Source of the DNA: Terramyces sp. JEL0728
Taxonomy: Eukaryota; Chytridiomycota; Chytridiomycetes; Rhizophydiales; Terramycetaceae
Reading direction: 5' to 3'
DNA: 25,345 bases
NCBI GenBank assembly: GCA_027603945.1
Contig: JADIIU010000167.1
Location: 1 to 25,345 of the forward strand
Position numbers and translations under genes: made by a program. Below, in pieces: positions 1-25,345 of this stretch (position 1 is its first letter; each line of letters opens with the position of its first letter). The notes under the pieces were generated by a model. The model was given only the letters and a program-made list of their open reading frames with translations. It was not told where the DNA came from and made no database searches.

Positions 1-345
1 CAGCCTCTTTGGTCTTTCCGCCAATTTCACTCAATTTATTTCCAGCACTATCGTAAGCGCTCTTTGCAGTGTCGCTGACTTTTTCACCAATTCCGCTCGC
101 TTTCTTTTCAGCACTATCGTAAGCGTTCTTTGCATTTTCGTGGGCCTTTCCACCCATTTCGTTTGCCTTGTCTGCTGCATTATCGTATGCGTTCTTTGCA
201 GAGTCTTTGGCTTTTCCACCCATTTCGCTGGCCTTTCCACCCACTTCATTCGCCTTATCTGCTGCACTATCGTAAGCGTTCTTTGCAGTGTCTTTGGCCT
301 TTCCACCCATTTCGTTTGCCTTGTCTGCTGTATTATCGTAAGCAT
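1..345 (-). repeat. 66-nt coding repeats of the LEA-like gene
   Basis: The anchor TCGTA(A/T)GC recurs at 51, 117, 183, 270 and 336. Spacing is 66 nt, except one 87-nt step caused by an extra 21-nt piece encoding a second copy of (S/A)xEMGGKA. Each unit encodes 22 residues, so the array can grow or shrink without breaking the reading frame. Confidence 0.85.
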
Positions 346-541
346 CCGACATCTTGTCTTTCATTTGATCGGTTCTGAATTGTTGATTGTCTTGAGTCTG
401 AGGAGTAATGGCATTAGCAATGGCATCTAGTATTAAGAAACAGATACCTTTAGCAGACCTTGCTTTGTCTTTGATAGCACCAATGCCTTGGTCGACATAG
501 TTTCCAATTGTTTTAGACTTTCCGTTATCTGAGCTGTCCAT
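1..541 (-). CDS. LEA/Hsp12-like repeat protein, 3' end beyond window
   Basis: Hydrophilic stress protein of the late-embryogenesis-abundant (group 3) type, probably a desiccation or heat protectant; the role is inferred from composition. The ATG lies at 541 (minus strand). The first exon (541-448) encodes MDSSDNGKSKTIGNYVDQG. Removing a 21-nt GT-AG intron at 427-447 joins it to a second exon running off the left edge. The N-terminal part (TPQTQDNQQFRTDQMKDKM) resembles the Hsp9/Hsp12 pattern of TP-x-SQK followed by a charged helix. The rest is about five 22-residue repeats of the type AKNAYDSAADKANEMGGKAK, each two 11-mers rich in Ala, Lys, Asp and Gly and free of Cys and Trp. A second, shorter paralogue lies just downstream in the window with its first intron in the same place. 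Family call is fairly sure; the C terminus is not visible. Confidence 0.75.
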   Translation of the reverse strand, partial: MDSSDNGKSKTIGNYVDQGIGAIKDKARSAKGICFLILDAIANAITPQTQDNQQFRTDQMKDKMSDAYDNTADKANEMGGKAKDTAKNAYDSAADKANEVGGKASEMGGKAKDSAKNAYDNAADKANEMGGKAHENAKNAYDSAEKKASGIGEKVSDTAKSAYDSAGNKLSEIGGKTKEA

Positions 542-1214
542 TGCGGAAGGTAAATTTCCGTATGCTTTTATGTCATTGTGTTTACTATCTTGTTGGTAGC
601 ATGTGAATTAATGCAAACAAAATTGCATAATTAATGCAGAACAGATGGCACGGAAATCATATATTTCACATGCTTTGGAACGGTAGGTACACACTATGGT
701 TTTCAGTACCGGTTGTGGTGGAGTTTCTGTGTATATTACCTCTTCATTACTATTTGCTGTGGATTTCCACTGTTTCAATGTAGCAACCGGATTTTGCTCA
801 TATCGGGAATTACTTTAACTTGATGCAATCTTCGGAAACTTTCGTTTGTTGAGAATCTGATATCAATTCAACTAATCAAGCAATAACTGAGTTTCTCTCT
901 TGTTTTTCCATGCTTAATCAATGGAAGCTGCAGCCAATCAGGCTTATCGACGCGATTTTCACCTGGTATTATTTATTAACAGTCAGTATTCCAGAATAAA
1001 TTGGCGAGTAGATTGCGTGGACTATTCATCTTCACAAACACTTGTTCAAACAGAATCAGATTTGTCTTGAAAAGATGCCGTTAAATTCTACATCAACTAA
1101 AAGCTACTTCAATTGGCTCAGTTTCGAATCAGATGGTAGAGATCTTTCACTCATAAGAGCTGGGGTTGATTAGGAAGAAACGTAATTTCAAGAGCAAGTT
1201 TATTCAAGGAAACG
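542..1214. other. Intergenic region between the two LEA-like genes
   Basis: This 673-nt stretch separates the start of one LEA-like gene from the stop of the next, both on the minus strand, so it should hold the first gene's regulatory region. No long open frame, tRNA or repeat is visible. A 32-codon plus-strand frame at about 1075-1173 is too short to support. A CCAAT motif near 934 is the only recognisable promoter-type word besides the TATA-like element. Confidence 0.5.
565..572 (-). promoter_or_regulatory. TATA-like element of the first LEA-like gene
   Basis: On the minus strand this reads CATAAAAG, 23 nt before the ATG at 541. The paralogue has TATAAAAG at nearly the same distance, which supports it as a core promoter element. 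Confidence 0.45.
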
Positions 1215-1585
1215 TTATTCGTTATCAACCTTGTCAGATACGGTTTCTAAATTAAGATAAGATTGCCTTTTGCAGAATGAGCACTGTCTTTGAGATTTTG
1301 CATGCCTTGATTAAATACCCGAAACCTTCATTCATCTTTTCACTGTATTCATTCGCTTTATTTTCTGCACTGTGGTGTGCATCCTCCATTTTATCTTTCA
1401 CTTGATCAGATCGGGATTGCTTATTGTCTTGTGTGTGTGGGGTAAATGCGTGAGCGATAGAGTCTCATTAGCCGGTAGTTACCTTTGGCGTGTTTTGCTT
1501 TGTCTTTCATAGAACCAACACCTTGGTGGACATAATCTTCAAGCGGGGTTTTTTCGCTGCTTGCTTGCTGGTCTGAACTGTTCAT
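1215..1585 (-). CDS. Short LEA/Hsp12-like protein with three microintrons
   Basis: Paralogue of the repeat-bearing LEA-like gene to its left. The ATG is at 1585 and exons are 1585-1483, 1463-1326, 1305-1267 and 1246-1215, totalling 312 nt for a 103-residue product ending KETVSDKVDNE. Introns are 19 nt (1464-1482), 20 nt (1306-1325, starting GTTTCG) and 20 nt (1247-1266, starting GC rather than GT). The product opens MNSSDQQASSEKTPLEDYVH and contains FTPHTQDNKQSRSDQVKDKM, aligned with the neighbour and similar to the Hsp9/Hsp12 core. It lacks the 22-residue repeats. The first intron sits exactly where the neighbour's does. The last two introns are inferred because they restore LEA-like coding (NLKDSAHSAKE); without them the frame drifts into a non-LEA tail. 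A likely dormancy or stress protectant. Confidence 0.7.
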
Positions 1586-1607
1586 TGCAAGACTGCTGAA
1601 TTGAGCG

Positions 1608-1615
1608 CTTTTATA
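1608..1615 (-). promoter_or_regulatory. TATA box of the short LEA-like gene
   Basis: Minus strand TATAAAAG, 22 nt before the ATG at 1585. Same arrangement as its paralogue. Confidence 0.6.
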
Positions 1616-1762
1616 CGCAAGAGTTTAATATCATGCAGGCATCCAGTGCATAACTCAATGTCAATTGCATGATTACAGCAGAATAAATAGCAGTGCAATT
1701 CATTTATACTTTTTAGAGACTCTGATTTTTAAACAATCTAAAATTCGCATTTGAAACTCCAC

Positions 1763-3349
1763 ATGTTCCACAAACTGGTAAACAGAGAGCTGGGAATAAA
1801 GCAAAAGAAACTATCATTCTACTCCAACATATATCCAAACAAGACGCTTTACAATCAAGTATTCAATGACAATATCCGCAAGTTCTCGCCATGCGGTAAT
1901 TTTCTGATATGCTTTTCCAAAGAAAATCATGGAATCGCAGTATATATGTATAAACCACCTAGTAGTCACTCTCCAAAAATGGCTCAATTCTTTACCCGCA
2001 TTTACAAGGTATACTTAGCTGCCGACCCGCAAGTATTGTGTACTGACTTTCTCTTATTTACCAGAAACAAAAAGTACATGATCCTGGCTGGAGCAGCGAC
2101 CTGCACCAATGTCGTAAAGAAATACCCAAACTCGCTTTCTTGTATAACGTAATCAAATGTTGACAGTAGACCCTTGGACGATATTACCTTTTATGTGGTG
2201 GAAATCGAAACTGGAAGGATATGCGACCAAAAGCTATTTACAAGTGATTATATATACCTTTCAAATCATTCTGGATGCCATTTATACAATGATTACTTTG
2301 CAATTACTTCTGTCCAAAACCAAGTAGGATCATATTAACAAAAGTGTGTATATATTTATTTAATTAAACCTGATGGCAAGTTTGTTCCTGTTCTGGATTT
2401 AGGCTGGCACTGTAACGCGGATGATCAACTTGTCCTTGATGACCAATTCAGAAAAGAGATGCTACACACGGAACTTGATTTTCAAACCAGAATTTTGATT
2501 AATGACTCTCATCAGGTACCGTCAGATGCAGCATATAGCTATTTGTTCAACAGCTCAGTTTCAATTGAAATACCAGTCACTGAAAATAGGAATATCCCGC
2601 TTCCTGGGCTAGTTCAAAAAACAATGACGTTTTTGTATCACAAAGCGTTGGAAACTAATACCTTGGACCACTTTTACCAATCATTTACGTATTTTTCTAA
2701 TCTTGTAATGTGGAGAATGCAGTTTATCAAAGAATCTCTCATCATGATTAAATTAGGGTCCATCAACAACATTTGCAGTCGGTCTAATGACATCGTAGCA
2801 TACACCGCATTCTTTGTATTTTATTGTTTGGATACAAAGCAAGTACAGGGAGTGTATGAAAATAGCTCACCTGAATTATTGCATCTGTTTGAAACAAATC
2901 CATGCTTCACTTCTTCTAGCTTTCCGGACGATCAGACTACCATTACAACAGTGTGTAACAACAAATATGCAAAAGAACTCATTAAAAAGCACATGTATGC
3001 TGTGTTGAAAGCAAAGAATGGAGGGAAGAGTCAATCAATCAAAAGAATATTGTCTGCGCTTCCAATCAACCCGCAATCATTTTCTGAATCGCCGTATTTC
3101 AACCTGGATTTCTTTTCATTTGATGAAAAAGTAATCAATAGCTGTGATAGATTGCGAAACTGTACTGACTACCCTGTAAAATTTTTCGACCGAAAAACTG
3201 GGAGGCTAGTGTTTAAATTAAGGAGAAGGCGGATTAGTAGTGGAAGAAACAAGAATTGCTTGTATGTATTCCATCCAACGGACCCACTCATTATTGCTAT
3301 TCAAAGCGTTGATTCTTACACCATAATTAATCTGCATTACCGAGAATAA
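1763..3349 (+). CDS. DET1: DET1 (de-etiolated 1) orthologue
   Basis: DET1 is a nuclear component of DDB1-CUL4 ubiquitin ligase complexes (with COP10/DDA1-type partners) that represses light responses in plants and targets transcription factors in animals. Exons 1763-2148, 2170-2323 and 2345-3349 are joined by removing two 21-nt GT-AG introns; the 514-residue product is close to the roughly 540-550 of animal and plant DET1. Family landmarks, recalled from the animal protein, are the N-terminal IRKFSPCGNFLICFS, LAGAA, YVVEIETGRICD, ITSVQNQCVYIYLI, the central LVMWRMQFI, the stretch YENSSPELLHLFE, LPINPQSFSESPYFNLDFFS and the C-terminal FHPTDPLIIAIQSVD. The start was set at the first ATG (1763). 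It converges on the small gene at 3352-3573 with only two bases between stop codons. Identification is firm; partners are not in this window. Confidence 0.92.
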
Positions 3350-3351
3350 AT

Positions 3352-3573
3352 TCATTTGTAGTATGAGAATATTTTCCATTGCGGGAAAGCAGCGGCTTGA
3401 ACCCCGCCATATTGTCTGCCATCAAATATAAATAGCAGCCATGAGGTGGCAATAATAAGAATGATAATCGCCGCATTGAGCGATCTGTCTATAATTTCAC
3501 GCAATTGCACTTTTCTTTCATCAAGACGGCCGAAAACCCGCCAAAAAGCGCCGACACAAACACAGGATATCAT
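3352..3573 (-). CDS. Small single-span membrane protein, unrecognised
   Basis: A 73-residue frame starting at the ATG at 3573. The first half is basic and amphipathic (RVFGRLDERKVQLREIIDRS), followed by one strongly hydrophobic segment at about residues 33-48 (NAAIIILIIATSWLLF) and a short tail ending WKIFSYYK. It lies in the 289-nt gap between the stop of the velvet gene (same strand, 65 nt upstream) and the stop of DET1 (opposite strand, 2 nt away). It may be a small organelle or ER membrane subunit, but I do not recognise a family. A 22-nt GT-AG stretch within it would shift the frame, so I left the frame unspliced. The clean transmembrane segment argues for a real gene. Confidence 0.5.
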   Translation of the reverse strand: MISCVCVGAFWRVFGRLDERKVQLREIIDRSLNAAIIILIIATSWLLFIFDGRQYGGVQAAAFPQWKIFSYYK

Positions 3574-3638: not shown

Positions 3639-4359
3639 TTAGTCTGAAGTTGAATCTTGCTCCTTGTTCTTTATGGTAGAGATATTTCGTATTGGAACTT
3701 TTATCCCTTGGAATGCCAGCGATTTTGTGAGTTCAGTCGATTCTTGTTAAAAAGCAATTACCCATCATTCCCATAAAGTTCGAAGGTGACAGGACAGCAA
3801 ATGTGGAAGAGAAAATGGAATCTTGAACACTGCCCATTGCTCCTGATAGCTGAAGAGAGCCAGCAATATCGCTGCTATTGTTAATTCCAAGTACCATGAC
3901 AAATCAAACAGAGAAAACTTTAGTTTGTATTTGCCTTCTGCTCTAACAGACAAATCAGAGAAAATAAAGTACGCGGTCTCGTTTCCGTTAGGACCAAATA
4001 AACTATAAGACGGAGAAATCAATGTTCCAATAAGATTCGATGATTCTGGCGAGCATTCAGAGTTCAAGAACCGGCATTCACGGTCTTTGTTTTCATCCCA
4101 TATCGAACAATAGCAAGTGAGAAACGGCAGTTTGTGATTGCTATCATTAATAAAAGATACATCATCTCCTTGTCGAAATCCGGACTCATTTCCAGCTCCA
4201 ATACTTTGTTAAATATTAAATACTTGGTGGTGGGTCCACAGCTCTGCGCTGCTTGTCGTCAAACCCGCACATCTACCATTAAATCGGTTGTCTACCCTTG
4301 CCCGAAGCGGCTGCTGTGATATTTTCAACTTGAACCTAAATTACATTTTGTTTTTACAT
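3639..4359 (-). CDS. Velvet-domain transcriptional regulator
   Basis: Velvet proteins (VeA, VelB, VosA, VelC) are fungal DNA-binding regulators linking light, spore development and secondary metabolism. The gene needs six microintrons: 4336-4357 (22 nt), 4273-4295 (23), 4204-4223 (20), 4141-4160 (20), 3875-3894 (20) and 3743-3761 (19). Spliced exons total 597 nt, 198 residues. The product shows the complete domain: QQPLRARMCGFDDKQRR then VDPPPILELEM, LIGTLISP, AYFIFSDLSVRAEGKYKLKF, and FMGMMESTELTKSLAFQGIK before a short charged tail. The protein is little more than the domain, so it cannot be assigned to one of the four ascomycete subfamilies. The first intron falls inside the start codon (AT|G): the unspliced message would read ATG followed at once by TAA, and an in-frame TAG lies upstream, so no other ATG fits. 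Divergent from the F-box-like gene. Confidence 0.9.
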
Positions 4360-5559: not shown

Positions 5560-6804
5560 TTATTTAAAGTCCTTGTTAAATTCACGGCCAATAAGCATTC
5601 TACGAACTTCACTGGTGCCAGCGCCGATTTCATATAATTTGGCATCTCTCAATAATCTGCCGGCTGGGTAATCGTTGATATATCCGTTGCCGCCTAGACA
5701 TTGGATGGCGTCTAATGCGCATTCCGTTGCTCTTTCAGCAGAGTACAAAATAGCACCAGCACAGTCCTTGTTGCTGATGTTGCCAGCATCACAAGCCCTG
5801 CCAACTGCATAAACATATGAACGAGAAGCACTGAGCTTTGTGTACATGTCGGCAACCTTTCCTTGCAACAGTTGGAATTCGCCAATCTTGGTCCCAAACT
5901 GCTTGCGTTCGTGGACATATGGAATAGTAATATCCAAAGCGGCTTGCATCAAACCCAATGGACCACCAGATAATACCAATCTCTCCAAGTCCAATCCAGA
6001 CATTAACACGTAGACACCCCTTCCAACTTGTCCTAAAACATTTTCTGCAGGGACTTCGACGTTTTCAAATACTAATTCGCAAGTGTTGGATCCTCTCATC
6101 CCTAATTTATCCAACTTTGGAGATCTGGTAAAGCCTTTCATGCCCTGATATTATTTGGCAAATACCTTTTCAATCAGGAACGCAGTGATTCCTTTTGGTC
6201 CAGCACTGATATCAGTCTTTGCGTAGACAACCAAAACATCGGCGTCTGGGCCATTTGTAATCCAGAATTTAGTTCCATTCAAGATATATCTATCGCCTTT
6301 TTTATCTGCGCGCAACTTCATCGAGACGACATCAGAGCCGGAGCCAGCTTCAGACATTGCCAAAGCTCCAATATGGTCGCCAGAGATAAGTTTTGGCAAG
6401 TATTTTGCTTTTTGGGCAGCATTACCGTTGCGGACAATTTGGTTGACGCACAGGTTGGAATGAGCACCATAGGATAATGCTACAGATCCAGATGCTCTAG
6501 AGATTTCTTCCATTGCAATAGTGTGAGCCAAATAACCCATTTCTTGACCGCCGTATTCTTCTGGAGCCGTGATGCCCAGCAAACCCATATCTCCAAACTT
6601 TTTCCACATATCCATTGGGAATTGATTAGTTTTGTCAATTTCCTGAGCTCGTGGTGCCAATTCCCTTTGGCAAAAATCATGGACATTTTCACGCAATTGA
6701 TGCAAGTCATCGCTTAATCCTGCTACAGCAACGTTGTACGAGTCGTACGCAATACCTCTTGCGAGTCTAGCTGGTTTCAAAAGAGCCTTGGTGATTGCAA
6801 ACAT
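5560..6804 (-). CDS. IVD: Isovaleryl-CoA dehydrogenase, mitochondrial
   Basis: FAD-dependent acyl-CoA dehydrogenase that converts isovaleryl-CoA to 3-methylcrotonyl-CoA in leucine catabolism in the mitochondrial matrix, passing electrons to ETF. Exons 6804-6166 and 6144-5560 are joined by removing a 21-nt GT-AG intron, giving 407 residues (human about 425). The ATG at 6804 opens [17 protein letters not shown], a basic amphipathic presequence. Visible family motifs are [53 protein letters not shown] and [19 protein letters not shown]. The catalytic base typical of isovaleryl-CoA dehydrogenases is the Glu in [13 protein letters not shown], here about residue 267, and the position used by medium-chain enzymes is not Glu (YEIGAGTSE). 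This separates it from other acyl-CoA dehydrogenases. No methylcrotonyl-CoA carboxylase gene is next to it. Confidence 0.93.
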
Positions 6805-8095: not shown

Positions 8096-8258
8096 AATTT
8101 TGGAAAAAGATAATTTTGTTTTAGTAATATAATTATCATTGTATTTTTAGGAGAAATGAACTTGGTATTGCCATACAGCATAAATAACTTGGTATCGACA
8201 TTTTATTACTTACAACTCTTTCCCCAAGACTACCAACGCTTCGCAAATCTACATTAAA

Positions 8259-11008
8259 TCAAAATACTTTTTGGGACAATTCTGTCAAGGAGAATGTTGT
8301 CTCGATTGCATGGTGAGAAAAATGGACTTTGTACATTTCTTGGATGACATAGATGATTCTTTTGGAAACCAGCTTTCGATACTGTTCCAGAGAGACTAGG
8401 TTAATAGGCAAGTACCATTATCTGCAGTATCATCGGGTACTACCACTCTTGACAGGATACCTTCGTTTGGTTCTAGCAGTGCGGGGTATATTTCAACGCA
8501 TTTGGATATAATTGGAGTCAATTCTTGAAGAATGCCTTCTGTGGTTGGCTCTGGCAGTTTGCTTGATGGTAGCACAATCATGAACGGCTGTGAAGATGCC
8601 AAAACATTGTATTTACCATCGTAATGGTACCGTACTTCAAACTTGCCAGTTCTCCAAGGAATGCGCTGTCTGGAGTAAACCAAAGTCCCTTTTACCAGTC
8701 TTAATCCTAATTCTGAACTTGGAGATATCTCTACAGGCGTATCTCCAAAAGCATTTCCTTTGGGGGTCTTTGAAAATAAGACTGTGTCGTCCGAATTGAC
8801 TATAGAGCTGCTGTTTAATCTAAACCCAGATACGTGCATCCATTTGGTTGAACAAGTCGAAGTTGTGATGTGTGGATCGAAATTTTGAGATACATCGTAT
8901 ACACCAATCCAGTCTTTTTGTTTCATAGTCTCTCTACATCCAGTGAAATCAATCGAGATTGGGTCTCCAAACTGAAGAGTAAGGATGGTATCAGCTGTAC
9001 TCCCAAGCGACAGCGTATAGAGGTGCAATGGAAGACTGTTTCTAGCCAAAGAATCTTCAAATCGTGCTGCATTTGCAATACTGGCAACACCTCTTTGTGT
9101 TTTTTGGACCATTGCTTTAACGTGTGGTTTTGCATTATGCATCAATCCTTCCAATTCCTGCACAACCCCCTTTATAGTATCGATAACAATTCCGCCAGTG
9201 GAATTTGTTCTTTTTCTTCTCTTTAATCTCAAGGTATCGTCATCTTCTGACTCGGAAGCAATAGACTCAGAATCAGAGTCCAAAGTTCGGGTTGGTACTA
9301 TTGTGTCCATGTCTGTTATTGTGGTAACAGTGTCGGATCGATTGAGCAAGTTTTCAGAGCTGGTAGCGCTATTCAAGTTCTTTCCATAAGTAGAATCAAT
9401 ATGCGGCCGTTCGACTAGCTGAAGGAATATAAAGTGCAATATTTGTCCAAATAGTGTAATCCAGAATATTTCCCACGAAGCACAAATTAATACGACTCCC
9501 CAAGAGGAAAAGTTGTACAGCAAAGGGTGTTCCAGGTACTTGTATATTCCAGATTGCTTCTTATCTCTACTTTGTAGTGCATCAATAAAATAATCAGCAT
9601 GGAACCAGCCAATTGGTCCCAGCACAGTGTATACTGCGGTTGTAATCCAGGCATGAAGAACAATAAACAACTACATTAGCTTTGCTTACCAATCCAAGAG
9701 TATGCTTGATTACTTCTCCGTCATTGAAATAGCTATCTGGAAATTTGTAGAATCGATAGGCAGTAACAAAAAGAGACACGTAGATCATGGTAAGTGTCAG
9801 ATTAAACAGCACTTTCCAATGAGTAAATGCTTCTTTTAAACTTTCGCCCCTCTTTATATATAACCGGGTCCAAAATTTGTTTTTTCCTTGCAAATGTAGT
9901 ATCATCCCTAAACCAAAAGTATGCAAAAATCTCCAAAATACCGGCTGGGCAAGGTAAAACCACTTGTTGCTCCTGGTTACTGGGCCAATGAAAAACGCAG
10001 TGATGAGGGTGTAAGTTGCGATAAAGTAGGTCATCAAATCTCCGCTTCTGAAAATGTTGAAATTGGTAAAGAGTGTAAGATCATGTCCGAAATAAGAATG
10101 CTTAATCTTTTGAAATTCTTCGTCCTCCTCTTCTGGTGCTTCTTGGATTTTCTTGGATTGCGGTCTTTCAACATAGTACAAGAAGATTATTTGGCTAGCA
10201 TGACCGGCCAAACTAACAAACAATACAGTATATGATTGCGTTAATAAAGCCATCCCGTAGTAACCGATATACCCGATAGAATACATTGGATGCGGGATTT
10301 TGTCGAACGATCCCTTTTCAACAGGGTGATGGGACTTTATGAAAAAGAAATTTCCCCAGTCTACATTAAAGCACTATTACAGGTAGTATACGGGTCCATG
10401 GTTTGACTGAGATCGAACCTGATTCCAACGTTGAAACATATAATCAAGAATCCGCCCATCTTTTGCAGCACAATTTTGAGTCCTTCCAAGGTATCCAGAT
10501 CAACTGCATTCTGATCTGAAAATCCTCTAGCGAATAAACAGTAGGCTAATAGATCGTTTGAAATCAATAAAAAAGCAATCTGTCTGAACAAGACCCAGGT
10601 GTTGAATTCGATGGGCATTGAAACATAATCATATTCAAACCCAGTATTATTTTCCATGTATAATGTAATTTGCCTAGTCCAGTAAGTTGCCCATTCAGTT
10701 CTTGGTTTCTTTGGGTTCCTTCCTAGCCCACAGTATGCCATTAAGCGAATAACACTTGAATGTTTGGATTGCTGGGCAAGTACAATTCCCAGCCCGATGA
10801 TAAGCAATGCTCTCCAGAATACAAAGTAGCCTAACAGTAAATACTTGGAAGAGTTCATTTGAAGCAGCTGGAATAACAGCATTGCAATGTTGAGCAGCTC
10901 CAAATCTGTCGGCCTTGCAAATTTAAATTCCTTGCTGAATGCTGGAAAGTAGAATACTGATCCATCTACAAATCGTATTCCTTGGAAGAATGTTTGCTCT
11001 TCCTCCAT
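8259..11008 (-). CDS. CHO2: Phosphatidylethanolamine N-methyltransferase (Cho2 type)
   Basis: ER membrane enzyme that carries out the first S-adenosylmethionine-dependent methylation of phosphatidylethanolamine on the way to phosphatidylcholine. Exons 11008-10381, 10360-9690, 9670-8416 and 8395-8259 are joined by removing 20-, 19- and 20-nt introns, giving 896 residues (yeast Cho2 is about 870). Fungal Cho2 features in order: EFNTWVLFRQIAFLLI, then TYWGNFFF restored across the first intron, HPMYSIGYIGYYG (first methyltransferase unit) with YYVERP, LGPIGWF, a second unit ending LVERPHIDSTYGK, an acidic/Ser-rich linker, and a C-terminal region unique to fungal Cho2. Many hydrophobic helices are present. 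Without the last intron the protein would end early at CLLT; with it 44 more residues continue as VSLEQYRKLVSKRIIYVIQE. The start is the ATG at 11008. A second enzyme (Opi3-like) would be needed for later steps and is not here. Confidence 0.93.
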
Positions 11009-11857: not shown

Positions 11858-12706
11858 ATGAAGGTAAGAAATAAACAAGGATCAATGGAAAGAGCGAATG
11901 ATTCGGATATAACTGGACAGTACTAATATTAAGATTAATATTGCTTACCCGGCAACTGGGGCCCAAAAGATGGTTGAAATCGATGATGAACGTAAACTGT
12001 AATACTATTTTAACAACAGTCGTATCTTTTATGACAAGCGTATGTCTCAAGAAGTCAATGCTGATGCTCTCGGTGATGAATTCAAGGGTTACGTTTTGAA
12101 AATCACTGGTGGAAATGACAAGCAAGGTTTCCCAATGAAACAAGGTGTTTTGTTGAACCACCGTGTTCGTCTTTTGTTGTCAAAGGGACACTCTTGCTAC
12201 CGTCCACGCAAGACTGGTGAACGCAAGCGCAAGTCTGTCAGAGGCTGCATTGTTGGTGCTGATATTGCTGCTCTTTCTGTTGTTGTTACTAAACAAGGTA
12301 ATGATTAATTTAATGAATAGGCGAACAAGATATTCCAGGATTAACTGATGTTCAAATTCCAAAAAGACTTGGACCAAAGCGTGCAAACAAAATCCGCAAG
12401 ATGTTCAATTTGACCAAGGATGACGATGTTACCAAATATGTTATCCGTCGTGAAGTCCCTTCAAAGAAACATGAAGGAAAAGTCAACACCAAGGCACCAA
12501 AGATTCAACGCCTTGTTACCCCATTGACCATCCAACGTAAACGTCACCTCAAAGCTGTCAAGATTGCATCTGCTAAAAGATCTGCTGAAGCTGCTGCTGA
12601 ATATCAAGCTCTTTTGGCTCTTCGCATTAAAGAAAAGAAGGAAAAGAAAGCTGAATTACACCAAAAGCGTCGTTTGTCTTCTACCCGCAAATCCGGAACT
12701 GCTTAA
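11858..12706 (+). CDS. RPS6: 40S ribosomal protein S6 (eS6)
   Basis: Cytosolic small-subunit ribosomal protein and classic S6-kinase target. Exons are 11858-11863, 11934-11998, 12020-12297 and 12321-12706, coding for 244 residues (yeast 236, human 249). Introns are 70, 21 and 23 nt. The spliced N terminus reads [20 protein letters not shown], followed by [45 protein letters not shown] and [20 protein letters not shown]. The C terminus ends [12 protein letters not shown], matching the conserved phosphorylated serine cluster. The 70-nt intron follows codon 2, contains TACTAAT near its 3' end and is the only non-micro intron found; I recall that yeast RPS6 genes also carry an intron right after the first codons. 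No TATA box is evident; the leader is pyrimidine-rich. Confidence 0.97.
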
Positions 12707-14903: not shown

Positions 14904-15458
14904 ATGTCAGCTCAAGGAAATTCTAAAGAAAGAGTAATGGAAGTCGTTGAAAATACCAACGCGCAGCAAGAGTTTATTGCAAAGCGAACAGTCTGTATCC
15001 CAGTAGATGAATCCGACGCTTCAAAACACACTGTGCAATGGGCACTTGGCAACATCCTCAACCCAGAAACAGATCAAGTAGTACTGTTACATGTCAGACC
15101 TCATGCTTTCAACGACTATGGAATCGAACTTGGATTCCCATACGTTATCCCTACCGAATCACTCGACGAAGCAGAAAAAGGCTTGCGCACCTTCTCCCAC
15201 GAACTACTAAAAGCTACTGCTAAACCATTCTTGGAAAGAAAGATTCATGTACGCGCTGTCTCCCTTCGAGGTGAACCTAGAGAAGAAATCGAATACAAGG
15301 TTAATTTGATTAAGCCTTCGTTTGTAGTTATGGGATCAAGAGGGTTGAATACTTTTAGTAGGGCTATTCTTGGTTCTGTTTCTGAACATATGCTTCACCA
15401 TCTTAATGTTCCAGTAATGATTGTCCCTTTTGTAAAGGAAGACAAGAAGAATCAATAA
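14904..15458 (+). CDS. Universal stress protein (UspA domain) 1
   Basis: A 184-residue, intronless protein with one UspA fold. After a polar 25-residue N terminus the domain starts KRTVCIPVDESDASKHTVQW, with the usual first strand and conserved Asp at about residue 35, then VVLLHVRP. The nucleotide-binding loop G-2x-G-9x-G(S/T) is complete: GSRG at 144-147 and GS at 157-158, followed by SEHMLHHLNVPVMIVP. It therefore belongs to the ATP-binding class. Such proteins are induced by starvation, oxidation or heat; the molecular action in fungi is poorly known. A second copy follows 146 nt downstream on the same strand; that one has a microintron and this one does not. Confidence 0.9.
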   Translation: MSAQGNSKERVMEVVENTNAQQEFIAKRTVCIPVDESDASKHTVQWALGNILNPETDQVVLLHVRPHAFNDYGIELGFPYVIPTESLDEAEKGLRTFSHELLKATAKPFLERKIHVRAVSLRGEPREEIEYKVNLIKPSFVVMGSRGLNTFSRAILGSVSEHMLHHLNVPVMIVPFVKEDKKNQ

Positions 15459-15568
15459 AGGAATAATTTATGTATTTAGTGCTTTAATTCTGGCTTAAAG
15501 ATTTAGAGTGGTGCAATTTACTCTTTTGCATAAATCACAATTAGTCACGAAAAGTCAGTGTGAACAAG

Positions 15569-15575
15569 TATAAAA
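15569..15575 (+). promoter_or_regulatory. TATA box of universal stress protein gene 2
   Basis: TATAAAA ending 29 nt before the ATG at 15605, the same spacing as in gene 1. Confidence 0.65.
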
Positions 15576-15604
15576 CCAGCACCAATGGCAATATCGCTGT
15601 TCAA

Positions 15605-16151
15605 ATGAGCTCTAACCCACCGGAAGAAGTAAATCACGGAAATCCAGTAACCCCAGATTTCGCACCAAAGCGAACTATTGTATTTCCAATCGACGCATCA
15701 GACCACTCAAAAAATACAATCTCTTGGGCAATTGACAACCTACTAAACGATCAAGACCAAGCGATTCTTCTGAACGTTAGATCTGGAGCGTTACATATCT
15801 TCAACGTCAATATGGGGTATCCATACGGACCAGTAGTATACCCACAAGGTAAATGTTTATGACAAAGAAACTGTAGTTAGAATTGAAGAAGCTGAAAAGT
15901 CAAACTCGCACGACTTATTATTGAAATTTGCCAAAGTTCTTGTCGCTAAAAAGATTCACACTAAAGCAATTGCATTGAAAGGTGAAGCAAGATCTGAACT
16001 CGTTGACACAATTAATAGTTTAAAACCGTCAATGGTTGTACTAGGTTCAAGAGGGCTGTCAAATATCGCTACGACTTTAATGGGCTCTGTTTCAAACTAT
16101 CTCTTACATCACTGTGAATGTCCAGTACTGATTTTACCTACAAAGCAATAA
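15605..16151 (+). CDS. Universal stress protein (UspA domain) 2
   Basis: Exons 15605-15848 and 15868-16151 are joined by removing a 19-nt GT-AG intron, giving 175 residues. The domain opens KRTIVFPIDASDHSKNTISW, has AILLNVR, and carries the nucleotide loop GSRG-9x-GS (LGSRGLSNIATTLMGSVS) before LLHHCECPVLILP. It is the tandem paralogue of the upstream gene and keeps all ATP-loop glycines. I chose the ATG at 15605 because a frame extension upstream has no ATG and overlaps the TATA box. The intron falls in the loop after the second strand, where the two paralogues differ in length. Probably also stress-regulated. Confidence 0.9.
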
Positions 16152-16188
16152 ACTCAATTTTAATTGAATTGGTTTTTACGCGTTTCTG

Positions 16189-19100
16189 ATGGACGAATCA
16201 AGAAAATCAGTTGGCGGTGTGCTCCATTCCGAACCAGATATAAGGTCGTCACAGCCGACAAGAGAATCACAGACTCAGTCAACTGCCGCGAAAGAACAGG
16301 GTTTTAGTAAAGTTAGAGCGTCAGAGTCGAGTTTGCAGGAGGAAAATCTGCAAGAGTTATCAGAACTAATCAAATCTGAACATATAGAAGAAACAGTTTC
16401 TGAAAGAGATAATCAAGACGTAGATTTGGAAGAGTTTACAGACGAAGCACTGTTTCCAGGATTCGAATTTGATTGTAATAGCATAGAAAAACAAGTAGTC
16501 GCCAATGAAAATGTATTCGACCCATATGCAAATAATTCGTTCCTGGCATATGAGCAAAAAGTGCTAGAGAAATATTCAAAAACTGGAACGCTGTCTTCTT
16601 TCAAAGGAGTAAAAGAAATCGAGAAATTCCGTGCTAAATTGGCTGCTAAAAATGAAATCCAGCACCTTCAAGATAAAATTGCAGGTATGGAACTGGAGAT
16701 AGAGCAAACAGAAATTGAATTGCATACTTGTAAAGTAAGTTGTTTTAAATATAGGAACAAAACAAGAGGTCAAAGTTTGATATGGAAAAAATTGTGATCG
16801 AGGTTGAAGATATGCTGGATGAACGTGGAATAAAAAGCCCATTTGCATCTGATCCAGTTGTCATTCCACTGGATCCATTTTTGATGCTTAAACCGCGATA
16901 TAGAATGCTTAAAGACCATTACTTTATCCACGACGAATTTATCAAACTTTCTCAACAACAACAGCCTATTTTGGAAGGCAAGCTGCAAGAATTACAAGAA
17001 GAGCTGCAAAATTTACAATCAGAGGAATCTCTACAGCACTCAACTCTGAAAACCATCCATTTGCAAGATAAAGAAGAATTGCTGGAGGCTAGCATCGTTG
17101 CTAAACATCGAAATATTCGATACCAAAAAGTTCAAAAAGGGATTGAGCGAGAACAAAAACTATCTGTGGCCAGAGAGCAAAAGGAAAGTCAGGGGGCAAA
17201 GAAAGAAGAGTTAAGATTACTTGATTCGCAAAAAACGAGTGCTGCCATTATGCACAAGTACATTCAGCAGTCCTACCAGAAACTAGTATTTCAAAACTAA
17301 TTTAGAAAAAAGAGGAAGAACGGCTTGAAGGGGAAAGGAACCTTTATCAAGAAAAGAAACAATTGGCAATCAATGCCCTTACCCAGCATTTGCAAGTCAT
17401 AAAAGCCAATCTTGAGAGACGCAGAAGGAAAAGCCTTTTGAAGCCAAGGAAATCTATCCATTCAAATGAAATCTTTTCAATGCAAGAAACTAGAAATATT
17501 ATTGCAAATCAAAAATTGGAAAATCAAAAGAGAAGGGAAGAGCGTTCTCAAAAAATTGAAACGGCAAAGTTTGAAATACTTGAAAATATCTTGGAGCAAG
17601 AAGCTAGAGTAGAAAGACAAAGTCTTGTAGCCAAAGGGATATATAAAATTGCTAAAAAGAAAGACATTAGTATTCCTCCACCCGCTGAAATTGTCCAGCC
17701 AGCTCAATATCCAGATCAAGAGACAAAAGAAAAATCCCCTAAAAGAAAAATCCCTCTCATCAAATTACGTCCTGCCCTCCCTCCAATTAAAAATACCGGT
17801 CGGTCTTCATTTTCATTGACCAAGCCTTATGAATTTGAACCAGAGTCATTAATACTGGAAAATCTACTGCCAGGGAGTGTGTCAAAGCAAAAAGTCAGGA
17901 TGATAAACACCACTGCCTGTCTCAACTCCTTCAAGTTAATTCAAATTCCTGAAGAGCTGGATAATCTTTTGTCAGTTAAATATAAAATTGTCGGTAAACA
18001 TACAGCAGGCTCTCAATCCTGGCTTGAAATGACGCTAAAAGCAAACAAAGATATTTTACAAACTTCAAGAAAATTTTCATTAAAATTTAGGGCTGCAGTT
18101 GGAGGAGAGTTTGAATATGATATCCATCTCCATCCAGCAAAGTGTTCCCCGATTATCCATAGCATTGGCGGCGAAAATACCAACACTATCAAATTTTCAC
18201 TTGGGGAACATACAAGAAAGAAAATCAAACCAACACCTTTAGAGCACATTCAAAAGGATAACGATGTTTCGGTTGATTTTGGAGATTGTTTTTTAGGAAG
18301 TGCCAAATCCATGTGGGTAAAAATTCAAAACACTGGATACTATTCTACCAACTACCATGTGCAGCTCCACTCTGAAAACGAGAGTCCGCCAGACACCACC
18401 GCTTCTATTTTGTCTCATCAAAATTTTAAAATATCGAGCACTGCAGGAACATTGGAATCAAGCGCATATTCTGTAGTTTTAATCAATTTCGAACCAGATT
18501 TTGACGAAGAGACTCAGATATGCGAGGATGAAGACGCTGCATTCCAAACTGGAACAAAGAAGGTTGCAAAATTTGACGTTGTTTTTAGCGAAAATGCACC
18601 AAAAATTACAATTTCATGCACTGGATATGCTAAATACCTACCGCTATCTGTTAACCGAAATCTGGTGGATCTGCAGTGGTGCTTGGGAAATGTGGACTAC
18701 CAAGATTTTATCATTTTGCGCAATGCTCATTCGACTTCGCTCAAATTTCAAATCAATGCCCACAATGAAAATGTAAAGTATGTCGATGGATGGTTGAGTA
18801 TTCCAGAGGTCGGTAAAGTTCAGATAGCACCGATATCAGGGTTTATTCAGCCTTTCGAGCCGTTCAAAGTCTGGCTAAAAATCAACTTTTTGCCAAAGGT
18901 TAATGAAACACACCAAAATGGAGATATTCCCGTGCAGATTCCTTTATGGGTTACCTACACTGATCATATCAGCCAAAAAGAAAACAATATTCTTTTTAAA
19001 ATCGTGGCTAAAATTACAAATCGCGACTTGGAAGTAAAATCAATTGGACTTTCAAACAGCTTGGATTTTGAAACTGTTTCAATATTAGAGCGAAAAGAAT

Positions 19101-21538
19101 TGGACATTTTAATCAAAAACTGCTCAAAGTTTCCACAACATGTGCGGTATTTATCTAAATCAAATGTTTTCAAGCTGCGTCCCTGCGACTCTGACCATCT
19201 TAATGATACATTCTTTTTGAAACCGCTGGAAGAAGTGTCAAGATCCATATGGTTTGACCCTACTGAATCCAAAGACTACCAAGAAAACGTTTCGTTCAAA
19301 AACAGCGTCGGGAATGTGTTTAAAATCAAATGTAACGGGAAAGGTTTTCAACCCGATGCCAAATTCCACAAATCTGAAATTGAGTTCCCAAAGATATCAC
19401 TTGGATGTGAAGTAACGAAGCGTATCCAATTGAATAGACGGAAACTAGAAGAAGGTGAAGAATTGTCCAATTTGCAGTATGAATTTCATCAGCCTGTATT
19501 GCTTTATATCGAAGGGGAAACGATATTAGATCCTGAAGCCCCTGGTGATTTAAACAGCCCAGCAGACTACGCTTTAACGGAAAATGACGAGCAAATTTTA
19601 CATATATTGCCAAGCAAAGGGGCATTTAAAGACCAGTCTCTGGTTGGGATTGATGTTGTCGCAAGTCTTCCTGCCTTCATCCCTGACCCGCCTAAAAAAG
19701 AAGTTCCTGTTAAGGTTGAGGAAGTTCCAATACCAGTTCCAGCAAAAGGAAAGGACACAAAAGGTAAAACAAAGGGTTCAACGAATAAAGCAGCTGTAGA
19801 AGAAGCTCCGATTGTACCTGTTGTCGAAGAACCAGAACTTCCAACCAAAACGCCATTTCAAATTAAATTGTTTACCACAAAATCTCCTGTTATCCACTGG
19901 CTGGTTCCGTGTACCTTACGAACTGTAAAAACGGACGAGCAACAAATCGATGCCCTATGCAATTCGCACCAAAAACTTGCAAACGAAATACGAGATTGCA
20001 AAATCTATATCCGAATGATTACTCCAGTTACAAACTCTCACTTTGAAATAGTAGAGCCGCTGAATTACAAATGCGATTTTGGATGCAATGCTGTTGGAAG
20101 AAGGTCGGCCCAAAGCATAGTAGTCAGAAATACCTCCAAGTCTGAAATACAGCTAAAAATGAGTGGATTGCATCCAAACGGACCCTTTTCACTCGTCAAG
20201 GCAATACGGCCAATAAACCCAGGGGAGACTGGAACTATTAAATTCACATTCACGCCAAAAGAGCCTTATCGCTATTTCCAAAACTTGGAATTTTCATTTC
20301 AAAATACAGCCTTTGCAGTAAAGTTATTGGGTGAAGGGGTAGTTCCACAGCTTCAAATTGACCCAGGAACGCAAATTGATTTAGGAGATGTGTGTGTGGG
20401 AGATAGCGCTAATCAAATTGTCAAGATAACCAACAACAGTGCGATCCCTTTGGCCATAAAATTTACATTTTTGTCTTACACACAACCGTCTACGGCAGGA
20501 TCTGCAAATTTTGATAAGAAGAGTGCGTTTTCCTACAGCCCTCCAAACCGAACTATATTGCCTTCTAAATCAACATACGATTTGCCAGTTAAATTTCAAC
20601 CGGATAGGGAGTATGATAACTATCTTGATGATCTGGTGATAATATGCCAAGAGCTGGCAACTCCGTTGAAAGTGAAAATGACTGGAAGGGGCTGGCATGT
20701 TGGCAGTATTGTTGCAGGGTACGAACCACATCCACTTGGATTCAAAGCGTACTCTTGGATTTGTAATCCAAAATTAGAGTACGAGTTGGCTTCTAATCGG
20801 CTGCTCGTGAATGATGAGAAAAAGGAAGAACCACAACCAGAATTGTTAATGGCAACATCAAGGAGGAAAGCACATTTCGCAACATTTTCAACTCGCTGGG
20901 AAAAATATCCCGGGTCAGCTCTAACCAACTATCCATCACTAGACCCGAATGAGCTCTATTGGAGAATAGCAACAAAGGAAATAACACTAGCGAACTTAAA
21001 ACCACAATTCAAAATCGACGCAGGTAAAAAAATTGGTGTTGTGGAATATACGATTGAAAAATTTGATGGGACATTCTATTACGATCCTCTGGTTGGTGAT
21101 TATGCGCTCTGTAATATAAAGAAGCCTCAAAGCGTTGGAGTCTCTTTCTTTGTGGAACCTGCAAAAGGGACAATAGAACTGGGATCTACCAAAACTATAA
21201 AAATTGATTCAACCCATCCTGTAAAAGAGTTTTGGCAGCAGTCATACAAGACATGGGAGAGAATACTTAAATATTCACAATCACTGCCTACCATACATAA
21301 ACCGGATTCCTCTAATAGCGAATGGGATATTTTGTCATATGCCAGAACGATTGAAGAAGATCCTGTAGCTGCTTACAAGCATATTGCAGGCAAATGTGAA
21401 GAGTTTGATCCAGAATTTATTGAAGAGGTTTTCAAGATTACATTTAAAGGTGGGTATAGAGTCGCAGAACCTAGAGGCCAGCAGCCGATACAAGATCATA
21501 GAGTATTCTACCTGAAAATCAAGGCTCCGGCTCCATAG
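16189..21538 (+). CDS. CFAP74: CFAP74-like flagellar central-pair protein (ASH domains)
   Basis: A 1769-residue protein from exons 16189-16734, 16755-17285 and 17306-21538 (two 20-nt introns). An acidic N-terminal region precedes a long coiled coil at about residues 145-470, rich in Glu, Gln, Lys and Arg. From about 530 to the end come repeated immunoglobulin-like ASH/MSP modules, each with strands such as VDFGDCFLGSAKSMWVKIQN, IQIDPGTQIDLGDVCVG-type phrases and SYDLPVKFQP-type edges. A Pro/Lys-rich linker (VPAKGKDTKGKTKGS) lies near 1170. N-terminal coiled coil followed by several ASH modules matches CFAP74, a projection protein of the C1 central-pair microtubule; HYDIN, CFAP65 and CFAP47 share the modules but differ in layout. 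The gene implies motile zoospores. Flagellar ASH protein is secure; the exact member is less so. Confidence 0.68.
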
Positions 21539-21675: not shown

Positions 21676-22731
21676 ATGAAGAAATTCACAAAACTGCGAT
21701 ATTTATTGATTCAAGCCGTCCTGATCTATGGCTTGTATATTTACATATTTTCAGTGCCTACTTATCCAAACAATCTCTTATATCCAACTGAAGATCAATC
21801 ACTAAATAATTCATGCGGAAAAGATCCAGCAGCAGATCAGTTCAGACTAGCAAGGATGGATTCCGCTACTTACTATTCCGATATGATTGCAGAGTGCGCG
21901 GCCATATCGAGACAAGATCAGTCCAATTGTAATGTACCAAAAATTGTACACTTGATACCGGGAAGTTCATTCAAGTATTATCACTATATCGCGGTAAAGG
22001 CAGTGGTAGATATAATCAAGCCGTACAAGATCTACATGCATGGCGAAATATTTCCTGTGAATAACAAATTATTCATGAAAACTATTAGAGTAAGCTGCAT
22101 TCATATTAGGATTATGATATTGAATTAGTGATGAGTAGAACGGTAAATAAAGTTTTTGGGAATGAAATGTTTCACGGGGAACACAAATCCGATATACTAA
22201 GACTAGAGGCGCTAATTAGACACGGCGGGATTTATCTGGACATGGATGCGTTTGTAGTGAAGCCATTTGACAGGTTCATGAAGGATGAGCTATCGATTGG
22301 GTATCAAAACAAAGACGAGGACTACGGAATAAATAATGGGATCATGGTAGCTAAAAAATGCTCAAGGTGACAACCGCTAATTTAGATTCCTACTTCGATG
22401 GTATGAGGAATACCGTTTTTTTAATAGTTCAGAATGGGACGAGCTATCAATTCGAACTCCTCTGCGACTCTACAATCTAGACTCCTCACACACAAAGGTT
22501 TACGAGCAAGAGCTACTTTCCTGGTACTCTTTTGACGGCAATCCATATGAAATGCCAATGTTTAGGCCGTACAACAACGAGGATTGGAAACAAACTTACG
22601 CTGTACATTCATTCTATAGATTATTTAAGGAGAATATACCGACGGAATATGACTTTGAAACCGTAAAGCAGCTTCAAAGCTCGTTTGGCCAGTATGCGAG
22701 ACATATTTTGTACGATGGACCTCCGTTGTGA
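21676..22731 (+). CDS. GT32-like glycosyltransferase A1 (intact)
   Basis: Type II membrane glycosyltransferase of the DxD sugar-binding superfamily (Gly_transf_sug, Och1-like GT32). Exons 21676-22089, 22110-22366 and 22386-22731 are joined by removing 20- and 19-nt introns, giving 338 residues. A short basic N terminus (MKKFTKLR) precedes one membrane span at about 8-28, then a luminal stem. PKIVHLIPGSS begins the catalytic fold; HGEHKSDILRLEAL and GGIYLDMDAFVVKPFDRF carry the nucleotide-sugar/metal site with DxD at 182-184, and IGYQNKDEDYGINNGIMVAK follows. The C-terminal third (FLLRWYEEYRF to YDGPPL) contains the usual final motif area with HSFYRLF. Likely Golgi, acting on wall or secreted glycans. 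It is the only complete copy here; its paralogue B1 starts 51 nt downstream with introns in matching positions. Confidence 0.85.
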
Positions 22732-23537
22732 AACTTGGCGCAGGTTTGAGATTTCAGGTTCTTGAGTTTCAATAAAATTAAAATGAAGGGAGATAGGAGG
22801 AAATTATTTCTCGCATTTGCATCTATAATTCTGTTATTACTTGTACTGTACAATTTGGAAGAGCTTCACACCACAACTCACAGTTTTTTCCAAACAAAAA
22901 AGAAATATTCAATACCAGATGATGTGAAAGCACTGCCAGAATCTAAATGCTACGCTAATCCTGTTACAGATCAGTTTGAATCTGTGAAGCTTGACTCTGT
23001 TCAAACACTAAAGAAAATACAAGAAATGTGCTCGAAATACACGCAGGAAGATTTTGATAGTTGTCAAGTGCCAAATGCTGTTCATTTGATCCCCGGAAAG
23101 GGTTTCAAATTCCACCATTACCTGAATATCAAAGCAATCAAAAATATCATCAATCCAGATCGCATATACGTTCACGGAGAGATATTTCCATTCCAAAGCC
23201 AATTTTTTATGAGAGCAGTACAAGTAATTCGAATTGATATTGTAGGAATTCAATTTGGAATTGGTAATTTCCAGATCTTTTTCAACAATTTACGGAAATA
23301 TCACAATTACACATGGAGAGCATAAAGCGGATATTCTAAGAATGGAGGCTTTATTAAAGTATGGCGGGATTTATCTTGACATGGATGCGTATCCGCTTAA
23401 ATCGTTCGATCGGTTCTTGAATGATGAATTTGCGATTGGGTATCAAAATCAGGAAGAAAATTACGGACTAAATAATGGAATAATGATTGGCAAAAAGTGC
23501 TCAAGGTAATCTGCTATTGAATTAGATTTCTCTTGAA
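21730..23537 (+). repeat. 1808-bp tandem duplication, copy 1
   Basis: The unit begins inside exon 1 of glycosyltransferase A1 (at GGCTTGTATATTTAC) and ends inside the start of exon 3 of B1 (at TTTCTCTTGAA). It matches 23538-25345 base for base in length, with roughly twenty substitutions seen by eye and no indel. Corresponding introns and stops are all offset by exactly 1808. Confidence 0.95.
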
Positions 23538-23613
23538 GGCTTGTATATTTACATATTTTCAGTGCCTACTTATCCAAACAATCTCTTATATCCAACTGAA
23601 GATCAATCACTAA
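22783..23613 (+). CDS. GT32-like glycosyltransferase B1, 3'-truncated by duplication
   Basis: Paralogue of A1. The ATG at 22783 gives MKGDRRKLFLAF, a membrane span to about residue 24, a stem, then AVHLIPGKGFKFHHYLNIKA. Exons are 22783-23223, 23246-23505 and 23526 onward (introns 22 and 20 nt at the positions seen in A1). DxD is at 192-194 in KYGGIYLDMDAYPLKSFDRF. After the second intron only FLLK remains before the duplication junction at 23537/23538. The frame then runs out of phase into copy A2 and stops at 23611-23613, a 262-residue product with a foreign tail of about 24 residues. The C-terminal third found in A1 is missing. A 20-nt GT-AG sequence at 23543-23562 could, if spliced, restore frame and fuse B1 to A2. 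As it stands it is probably impaired. Confidence 0.75.
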
Positions 23614-24539
23614 ATAATTCATGCGGAAAAGATCCAGCAGCAGATCAGTTCAGACTAGCAAGGATGGATTCCGCTACTTACTATTCCGATATGATTGCAG
23701 AGTGCGCGGCCATATCGAGACAAGATCAGTCCAATTGTAATGTACCAAAAATTGTACACTTGATACCGGGAAGTTCATTCAAGTATTATCACTATATCGC
23801 GGTAAAGGCAGTGGTAGATATAATCAAGCCGTACAAGATCTACATGCATGGCGAAATATTTCCTGTGAATAACAAATTATTCATGAAAACTATTAGAGTA
23901 AGCTGCATTCATATTAGGATTATGATATTGAACTAGTGATGAGTAGAACGGTAAATAAAGTTTTTGGGAATGAAATGTTTCACGGGGAACACAAATCCGA
24001 TATACTAAGACTAGAGGCGCTAATTAGACACGGCGGGATTTATCTGGACATGGATGCGTTTGTAATGAAGCCATTTGACAGATTCATGAAGGATGAGCTA
24101 TCGATTGGGTATCAAAACAAAGACGAGGACTACGGAATAAATAACGGGATCATAGTAGCTAAAAAATGCTCAAGGTGACAACCGCTAATTTAGATTCCTA
24201 CTTCGATGGTATGAGGAATACCGTTTTTTTAATAATTCAGAATGGGACGAGCTGTCAATTCGAACTCCTCTGCGACTCTACAATCTAGACTCCTCACACA
24301 CAAAGGTTTACGAGCAAGAGCTACTTTCCTGGTACTCTTTTGACGGCGATCCGTATGCAATGCCAATGTTTAGACCGTACAACAACGAGGATTGGAAACA
24401 AACTTACGCTGTACACTCATTCTATAGACTATTTAAGGAGAATATACCGACGGAATATGACTTTGAAACCGTAAAGCAGCTTGAAAGCTCGTTTGGCCAG
24501 TATGCGAGACATATTTTGTACGATGGACCTCCATTGTGA
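23538..24539 (+). pseudogene. GT32-like glycosyltransferase A2, 5'-truncated copy
   Basis: Second copy of A, starting within the membrane-span codons because the duplication junction removed the first 18 codons and the native ATG. Introns lie at 23898-23917 and 24175-24193; the stop is at 24537-24539. DxD and C-terminal motifs are intact. Compared with A1 I count about 15 substitutions, of which roughly six change residues (for example the M of GIMVAK becomes I). The first in-frame ATG is at 23664, giving a protein without membrane anchor or the start of the stem. It could be expressed only from that ATG or as a fusion with B1. Confidence 0.7.
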
Positions 24540-24590
24540 AACTTGGCGCAGGTTTGAGATTTCAGGTTCTTGAGTTTCAATAAAATTAAA

Positions 24591-25345
24591 ATGAAGGGAG
24601 ATAGGAGGAAATTATTTCTCGCATTTGCATCTATAATTCTGTTATTACTTGTACTGTACAATTTGGAAGAGCTTCACACCACAACTCACAGTTTTTTCCA
24701 AACAAAAAAGAAATATTCAATACCAGATGATGTGAAAGCACTGCCAGACTCTAAATGCTACGCTAATCCTGTTACAGATCAGTTTGAATCTGTGAAGCTT
24801 GACTCTGTTCAAACACTAAAGAAAATAGAAGAAATGTGCTCGAAATACACGCAGGAGGATTTTGATAGTTGTCAAGTGCCAAATGCTGTTCATTTGATCC
24901 CCGGAAAGAGTTTCAAATTCCACCATTACCTGAATATCAAAGCAATCAAAAATATCATCAATCCAGATCGCATATACGTTCACGGAGAGATATTTCCATT
25001 CCAAAGCCAATTTTTTATGAGAGCAGTACAAGTAATTCGAATTGATATTGTAGGAATTCAATTTGGAATTGGTAATTTCCAGATCTTTTTCAACAATTTA
25101 CGGAAATATCACAATTACGCATGGAGAGCATAAAGCGGATATTCTAAGAATGGAGGCTTTATTAAAGTATGGCGGGATTTACCTTGACATGGATGCGTAT
25201 CCGCTTAAATCGTTCGATCGGTTCTTGAATGATGAATTTGCGATTGGGTATCAAAATCAGGAAGAAAATTACGGACTAAATAATGGAATAATGATTGGCA
25301 AAAAGTGCTCAAGGTAATCTGCCATTGAATTAGATTTCTCTTGAA
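24591..25345 (+). CDS. GT32-like glycosyltransferase B2, cut by window end
   Basis: Second copy of B with its own ATG at 24591 and a complete 51-nt upstream spacer. Exons 24591-25031, 25054-25313 and 25334 onward (introns of 22 and 20 nt). Differences from B1 include Glu to Asp in the stem, Gln to Glu, and Gly to Ser in LIPGKSFKF. DxD is intact. The window stops after 12 bases of exon 3 (FLL plus part of the next codon), exactly at the repeat boundary, so whether it continues into a real C terminus or another A copy cannot be seen. Confidence 0.8.

Follow-up and report, generated by a model that had tools for sequence, protein, structure and literature searches.

What are the segments of about 20 nucleotides (nt) that interrupt one reading frame after another in contig JADIIU010000167.1 of Terramyces sp. 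JEL0728? The window, by which we mean the whole 25,345-nt stretch, is contig C167 of an assembly of 231 contigs and 15,016,339 bases, and it was analysed together with 20 stretches of 10 kb each from 20 other contigs, giving 225,345 bases or 1.5% of the genome, to which small loci from searches were added. Within the window, positions 17401-21399 were examined via their reading frames and the remainder by letters. Judged from the genomic sequence, the segments are very probably ordinary U2-type spliceosomal introns, apparently shrunk to ~20 nt throughout the nuclear genome of an organism that is fungus-like and flagellated. They interrupt the majority of the sampled genes and, as introns, rank with the shortest on record.

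Tiny introns of the window and the proteins restored by their removal

We placed introns in the window from the continuity of reading frames and from homologues, 22 by a gene finder and seven by hand, using for the latter the reading frame together with the family or a paralogue. This gave 29 introns of 19-23 nt in 13 genes (tandem glycosyltransferase copies counted as separate genes), with a mode of 20 nt: seven of 19 nt, 13 of 20, five of 21, two of 22 and two of 23 (Table 1). An earlier sequence-only reading of this DNA had listed 26 such introns in twelve genes; the observation stands, and the counts are revised. It had also described the donors as nearly all GTA, with GTTTCG and GC once each, which agrees with the 25 GTA, two GTG, one GTTTCG and one GC found here, the two GTG donors being one intron and its tandem copy. 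Note that the GTTTCG (1306-1325) and GC (1247-1266) introns are the weakest of the set, being based on paralogue-like residues and on their fit to the branch spacing described below. The eS6 gene in addition holds a 70-nt intron (GTAAGA donor, TACTAAT branch) that is absent from the earlier list, and a second candidate long intron, 63 nt in length and lying after codon 3, was seen at locus L011.

Conserved residues had been expected to reappear in CHO2, eS6, velvet and isovaleryl-CoA dehydrogenase (IVD) once the segments were removed, and they did so, as seen in the spliced TYWGNFFF of CHO2 and VDPPPILEL of velvet. Specifically, the spliced IVD aligned with the solved homologue 4o5m_A over residues 28-403 with zero gaps, and the spliced eS6 was gapless at all three junctions against eS6 of entry 9axt. 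Splicing out five tiny introns from the velvet gene gave a Pfam Velvet domain (166.5 bits), and the CFAP74-like gene (16189-21538) gave a protein of 1769 residues with several CFAP74 and ASH-type domains. Outside the window, the available part of PRP8 showed no gap at its junctions against a solved homologue, and the SF1 and U2AF65 models matched their families once spliced. The predicted velvet and CFAP74-like genes suggest a zoosporic, flagellated fungus.

Excess over chance and occurrence beyond the window

A motif-free gene finder, which relies on codon usage only and allows any GT..AG segment of 13-60 nt, found 195 GT..AG introns in the 225 kb, 127 of them of 19-22 nt. When the same finder was given nine non-intron end pairs (GT-AC, CT-AG, CT-AC, GT-TG, GA-AG, TG-GA, GTA-TG, CTA-AG and GAT-AG), it returned 74-176 segments, only 2-14 of which were of 19-22 nt; a tenth pair, TA-TA, returned 209 segments with 17 in that range, and GTA-AG ends gave 125 of 168. 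A further gene finder used a splice-motif model whose training set was 104 segments of 19-22 nt from beyond the window, with lengths of 13-160 nt allowed without length preference and the branch expected 4-8 nt from the intron end. It predicted 308 introns in 97 genes, 229 of them of 19-23 nt. Tiny introns were present on 21 of the 21 contigs sampled (237 introns of 18-24 nt summed), at a density of about one per kb, which extrapolates to a genome total of the order of 15,000. The earlier view that such introns are widespread in the genome is supported by this occurrence and by the count of 127 against 2-17 for the controls, on a base of 225,345 of 15,016,339 bases. A narrow modal length below ~30 nt, the hallmark of ultra-short intron genomes, was found on the 225-kb sample.

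Two independent spacings

Intron anatomy was read from the 235 distinct predictions of the motif gene finder that are 16-24 nt long. Their AT content was 70.1%, and the donor showed A at +3 in 93%, A at +4 in 57% and T at +6 in 62%, with G at -1 in 56%; the commonest donor was GTAATT (GUAAUU in RNA; 36/235). Position +5 (T 42%, A 23%, G 21%, C 14%) resembled the intron interior (T 44, A 27, G 15, C 14), so that the +5 G is nearly lost (49/235), with a slight excess over the interior (Fisher p=0.04). The branch box reads YTRAY, and in 179 of 233 introns 13-14 nt precede its A and 5-6 nt follow. The four spacing combinations (57, 48, 37 and 37 introns) fitted independence (p=0.68), and the two spacings were uncorrelated (Spearman 0.003, n=222). 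Because the motif model itself expects the branch 4-8 nt from the intron end, the analysis was redone on the motif-free introns: 87 of 137 had the branch A at 13-14/5-6 nt, whereas 200 shuffles of the interiors gave 9.9 on average and 20 at most, and the correlation was again nil (-0.012, n=117). The YTRAY element close to the AG described in the sequence-only reading is therefore sharply positioned. Since the spacings are uncorrelated, it is two independent distances that are held and not the total length; intron size reflects two independent near-fixed spacings, summing to 19-21 nt. We infer that, once positions +1 to +6 of the donor and the branch box are taken up, about 3-4 bases between them are free, and no polypyrimidine tract fits after the branch.

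The 21-nt class (14+6) was not depleted (37 seen vs 35.1 expected from the margins). Among introns with a length that is a multiple of three, 53 of 59 held an in-frame stop, compared with 30 on average when the other frames were read, a count that the finder itself favours, and no such enrichment was observed in the remaining introns (46/85 vs 52.5; 59/93 vs 58). Five GC-donor candidates were found, one in SF1, three elsewhere in the sample and one in the window, and three of the five carried the full GCAAGT. The one in the SF1 gene (locus L004, minus strand) is a 21-nt GC-AG intron with a GCAAGT donor and its branch A at 14+6; a 63-nt intron had been proposed in SF1, and it was rejected in favour of this one, as it would remove conserved sequence.

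A natural experiment was provided by the stretches on contigs C199 and C111, which are copies with 98.5% identity, each holding one VMP1-like and one MscS-like gene (both labelled by eye; the VMP1-like protein reached 29.9 bits for the Pfam VTT domain, below the cut-off of 33.9). Just two insertions or deletions fell inside predicted genes, both of one base and both within tiny introns (21 vs 20 nt); the exons remained in frame, and all other length differences lay between genes or at the alignment end. If the segments were retained in mRNA, each gene would have one broken copy. A 79-nt intron predicted in a VMP1-like gene at locus L026 is better read as a 19-nt intron. Two near-identical PPIE-like genes (labelled by eye) were also seen ~27 kb apart on contig C27 (L040 and L041).

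Splicing machinery

The sequence-only reading had proposed that U1, U2 or SF1 may be modified and had called for a search of the genome for splicing components. U2, U2AF, SF1 and PRP8 were all found. The U2 small nuclear RNA (snRNA) scored 140.2 bits with the branch-pairing GUAGUA unchanged, and the hand-corrected SF1 model contained the helix-hairpin, the KH domain, two zinc-knuckle stretches and a KTRW motif, which we take to be the U2AF ligand motif; an altered U2 or SF1 is thus not borne out. U2AF65 matched the solved RRM1-RRM2 and C-terminal domain of U2AF65, and its N-terminus matched the U2AF59 piece solved as 4yh8; these parts presumably bind SF1 and the small subunit. When read unspliced across its introns, U2AF65 reached 251.7 bits vs the family cut-off of 310.3, and the match was clear once it was spliced. 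The first 687 residues of PRP8 matched hPrp8 with 1235.8 bits. The four splicing parts examined, with PRP8 in part, look complete, and the PRP8, SF1 and U2AF65 genes themselves carry tiny introns.

Weighing the explanations

Several points weigh against the reading of the segments as U2-type introns of a fixed tiny size. All introns reported here are predictions from genomic DNA. Counts by length are biased, because introns of a multiple of three nt lacking an in-frame stop escape these methods. Of the motif-finder introns, 79 of 308 fell outside 19-23 nt, 70 of them above 24 nt; some of the longer ones visibly fuse tiny introns or adjacent genes, and not each was cleared in this way. The tiny size is no absolute limit, because eS6 has its 70-nt intron. 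A YTRAY-like box (4 of 5 points) occurred in 130 of 137 real and in 89 of 137 shuffled introns, so that the position of the box, not its presence, carries the argument. Finally, U1 snRNA gave no match by Rfam (41 of 233 candidates scored, no control genome capable of a match) or by two patterns, and U6 snRNA was not found by searches one of which scored 48 of 1328 candidates. The U6-like matches on C199, C111 and C65 lie in coding sequence and were rejected.

These failures bring in the strongest alternative, namely that a modified or reduced spliceosome, with the U1 small nuclear ribonucleoprotein (snRNP) lost or changed, enables such short introns. Canonical U1 snRNA carries ACUUACCU. Beyond the missing U1, a genome search for the U1-70K N-terminal domain gave 0 candidates (no control genome capable of a match), inspection by eye of 22 RRM loci showed none (6 of the 22 being without a frame that passed the filter), and the +5 G of the donor is little above the intron interior. 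However, the U1 and U1-70K searches were weak, and a splicing organism needs U6, which was likewise missed; the failures may for this reason reflect the way of searching, the draft state of the assembly or introns within genes more than loss. In three of five GC donors GCAAGT appears as if the +2 mismatch were offset by pairing at +5/+6, the other two lacking it, which hints weakly that a normal U1 may still pair with the donor. Moreover, SF1, U2AF65, U2 and the part of PRP8 are not reduced, and the ciliate Stentor, with introns of 15-16 nt, retains all five snRNAs according to PMC9505925. We regard a modified spliceosome as unlikely.

The other alternatives fare far worse. Segments cut from the DNA in development, like the eliminated sequences of ciliates, could also be short, frame-breaking and widespread, but the excess is for GT..AG ends (127 of 19-22 nt vs 17 for TA..TA, so that no comparable TA-bounded excess was found), the branch box lies at fixed distances and spliceosomal genes are present, leaving this explanation with next to no probability. 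Assembly errors or systematic 20-base insertions, for which no support was found, are scarcely credible given the fixed spacing of the splice motifs, the presence of tiny introns on 21 of 21 contigs and duplicate copies that differ by one base in length. Translational bypass, in which ribosomes skip or shift over the segments, would restore the proteins too, but it needs no GT, AG or branch box at 13-14/5-6 nt and leaves the end-pair controls (127 vs 2-17) unexplained, and it can practically be set aside.

For U2-type introns, removal of GT..AG segments restored frame and protein, the branch box can pair with U2, and PRP8, U2, SF1 and U2AF65 are present. In such introns SF1 and U2 would read the branch box, and the U2 and U6 helices would lie next to each other on the intron, separated by ~3-4 T-rich bases. 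As no polypyrimidine tract fits, SF1 would hold U2AF65 in place, and the AG would be taken 5-6 nt after the branch. The introns were probably eroded by deletion down to a lower limit set by the two distances. More tentatively, a near-complete fungal spliceosome may have been re-tuned to two fixed distances (13-14 and 5-6 nt), with ~15,000 introns at the lower physical limit, the +5 position and polypyrimidine tract unused and the U1 snRNP possibly lost or altered; we consider this fuller account possible rather than probable.

Comparison with known tiny introns

The sequence-only reading had limited known introns of this size to a small number of lineages, with ciliates and chlorarachniophyte nucleomorphs as examples. 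That account is incomplete, as mikrocytids have introns of 16 or 17 nt (PMC10245619). The introns of the heterotrich ciliate Stentor coeruleus are 15-16 nt in length, with the branch A at position 10 or 11 and a 5-nt tail (PMC9505925). They resemble those found here in their narrow size, GT-AG ends and AT-richness (75.6% there, 70.1% here), in the tail after the branch A (5 nt there, 5-6 here), in the start of the commonest intron, GUAAUU, which equals the commonest donor here, and in a largely conserved spliceosome (PMC9505925). In contrast, 9-10 nt precede the branch A there (PMC9505925) and 13-14 here, a strong branch consensus is lacking there whereas YTRAY is seen here, and the lineage is unrelated. 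Chlorarachniophyte nucleomorphs have similar introns of 18-21 nt (PMC10245619), most of them 18-20 nt (PMC5014332), but they are relict algal nuclei with reduced genomes, whereas the present genome measures 15 Mb and has genes for metabolism and the flagellum. Mikrocytid introns are likewise extremely uniform, but M. mackini has 224 introns and mikrocytid spliceosomes comprise 17-19 proteins (PMC10245619), as opposed to about one intron per kb and intact SF1 and U2AF65 here. Paramecium also carries very many tiny introns (>90,000, PMC10245619; ~25 nt, PMC5014332); introns of a multiple of three nt come under strong selection there, whereas the 21-nt class shows no depletion here. Microsporidia are fungal relatives with generally short introns (PMC10245619) and differ in having few introns and a reduced spliceosome. 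Altogether, this looks like a new lineage for a known phenomenon, a statement that rests on a limited literature search, so that a fungal precedent may exist.

Coordinates and neighbouring genes

Table 1. Introns placed in the window (positions on the 25,345-nt stretch).
Position	Strand	Feature	Basis or remark
427..447	-	21-nt intron, LEA-like gene A (label by eye)	single open frame on removal; position same in paralogue gene B
1247..1266	-	20-nt GC-AG intron, LEA-like gene B; weaker	branch A at 14+5
1306..1325	-	20-nt intron, GTTTCG donor, LEA-like gene B; weaker	branch A at 14+5
1464..1482	-	19-nt intron, LEA-like gene B	
2149..2169	+	21-nt intron, gene C (no family label)	gene finder
2324..2344	+	21-nt intron, gene C (no family label)	gene finder
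3743..3761	-	19-nt intron, velvet gene	gene finder; spliced protein Pfam Velvet
3875..3894	-	20-nt intron, velvet gene	gene finder; spliced protein Pfam Velvet
4141..4160	-	20-nt intron, velvet gene	by hand; spliced protein Pfam Velvet
4204..4223	-	20-nt intron, velvet gene	by hand; VDPPPILEL restored; spliced protein Pfam Velvet
4273..4295	-	23-nt intron, velvet gene	by hand; spliced protein Pfam Velvet
6145..6165	-	21-nt intron, IVD	gapless alignment to 4o5m_A
8249..8267	-	19-nt intron, CHO2-like gene	gene finder
8396..8415	-	20-nt intron, CHO2-like gene	gene finder
9671..9689	-	19-nt intron, CHO2-like gene	gene finder; spliced protein with PEMT domain
10361..10380	-	20-nt intron, CHO2-like gene	gene finder; TYWGNFFF restored
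11864..11933	+	70-nt intron after codon 2 of eS6, long exception	spliced eS6 aligns from residue 1
11999..12019	+	21-nt intron, eS6	junction gapless
12298..12320	+	23-nt intron, eS6	junction gapless
15849..15867	+	19-nt intron, universal stress protein gene 2	
16735..16754	+	20-nt intron, CFAP74-like gene	spliced protein with CFAP74 domains
17286..17305	+	20-nt intron, CFAP74-like gene	spliced protein with CFAP74 domains
22090..22109	+	20-nt intron, glycosyltransferase A	gene finder
22367..22385	+	19-nt intron, GTGACA donor, glycosyltransferase A	gene finder
23224..23245	+	22-nt intron, glycosyltransferase B	gene finder
23506..23525	+	20-nt intron, glycosyltransferase B	by hand
23898..23917	+	20-nt intron, second copy of glycosyltransferase A	gene finder
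24175..24193	+	19-nt intron, second copy of glycosyltransferase A	gene finder
25032..25053	+	22-nt intron, second copy of glycosyltransferase B	gene finder; coordinate from 1808-base period
25314..25333	+	20-nt intron, second copy of glycosyltransferase B	gene finder; coordinate read from letters

The LEA-like paralogues (1-607 and 1190-1585) have one intron position in common, with lengths of 21 and 19 nt, and gene B has two further tiny introns. Two adjoining universal-stress-protein-like genes occupy 14904-16151, one with a tiny intron and one without; the Pfam check covers the second. At 21741-25335, a pair of DXD glycosyltransferase genes is tandemly duplicated at a 1808-base period, and the duplication cuts gene B in its first copy; the copies differ by 22 substitutions and no internal insertion or deletion.

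Significance

Tiny introns thus reach beyond ciliates, relict nuclei and extreme parasites to an organism of fungal type that has genes for metabolism and for a flagellum. With two independent spacings, the limits on intron size can be told apart. The tail of 5-6 nt corresponds to the 5 nt seen in Stentor, but 13-14 nt here compare with 9-10 nt there ahead of the branch, which suggests that the branch-to-3'-site distance lies close to a lower limit that is shared and that lineage sets the 5'-site-to-branch distance. U2AF65 keeps its domains though its usual binding tract has no room. In practice, many genes here would be mis-annotated by prediction software that accepts introns only from 30-50 nt upwards.

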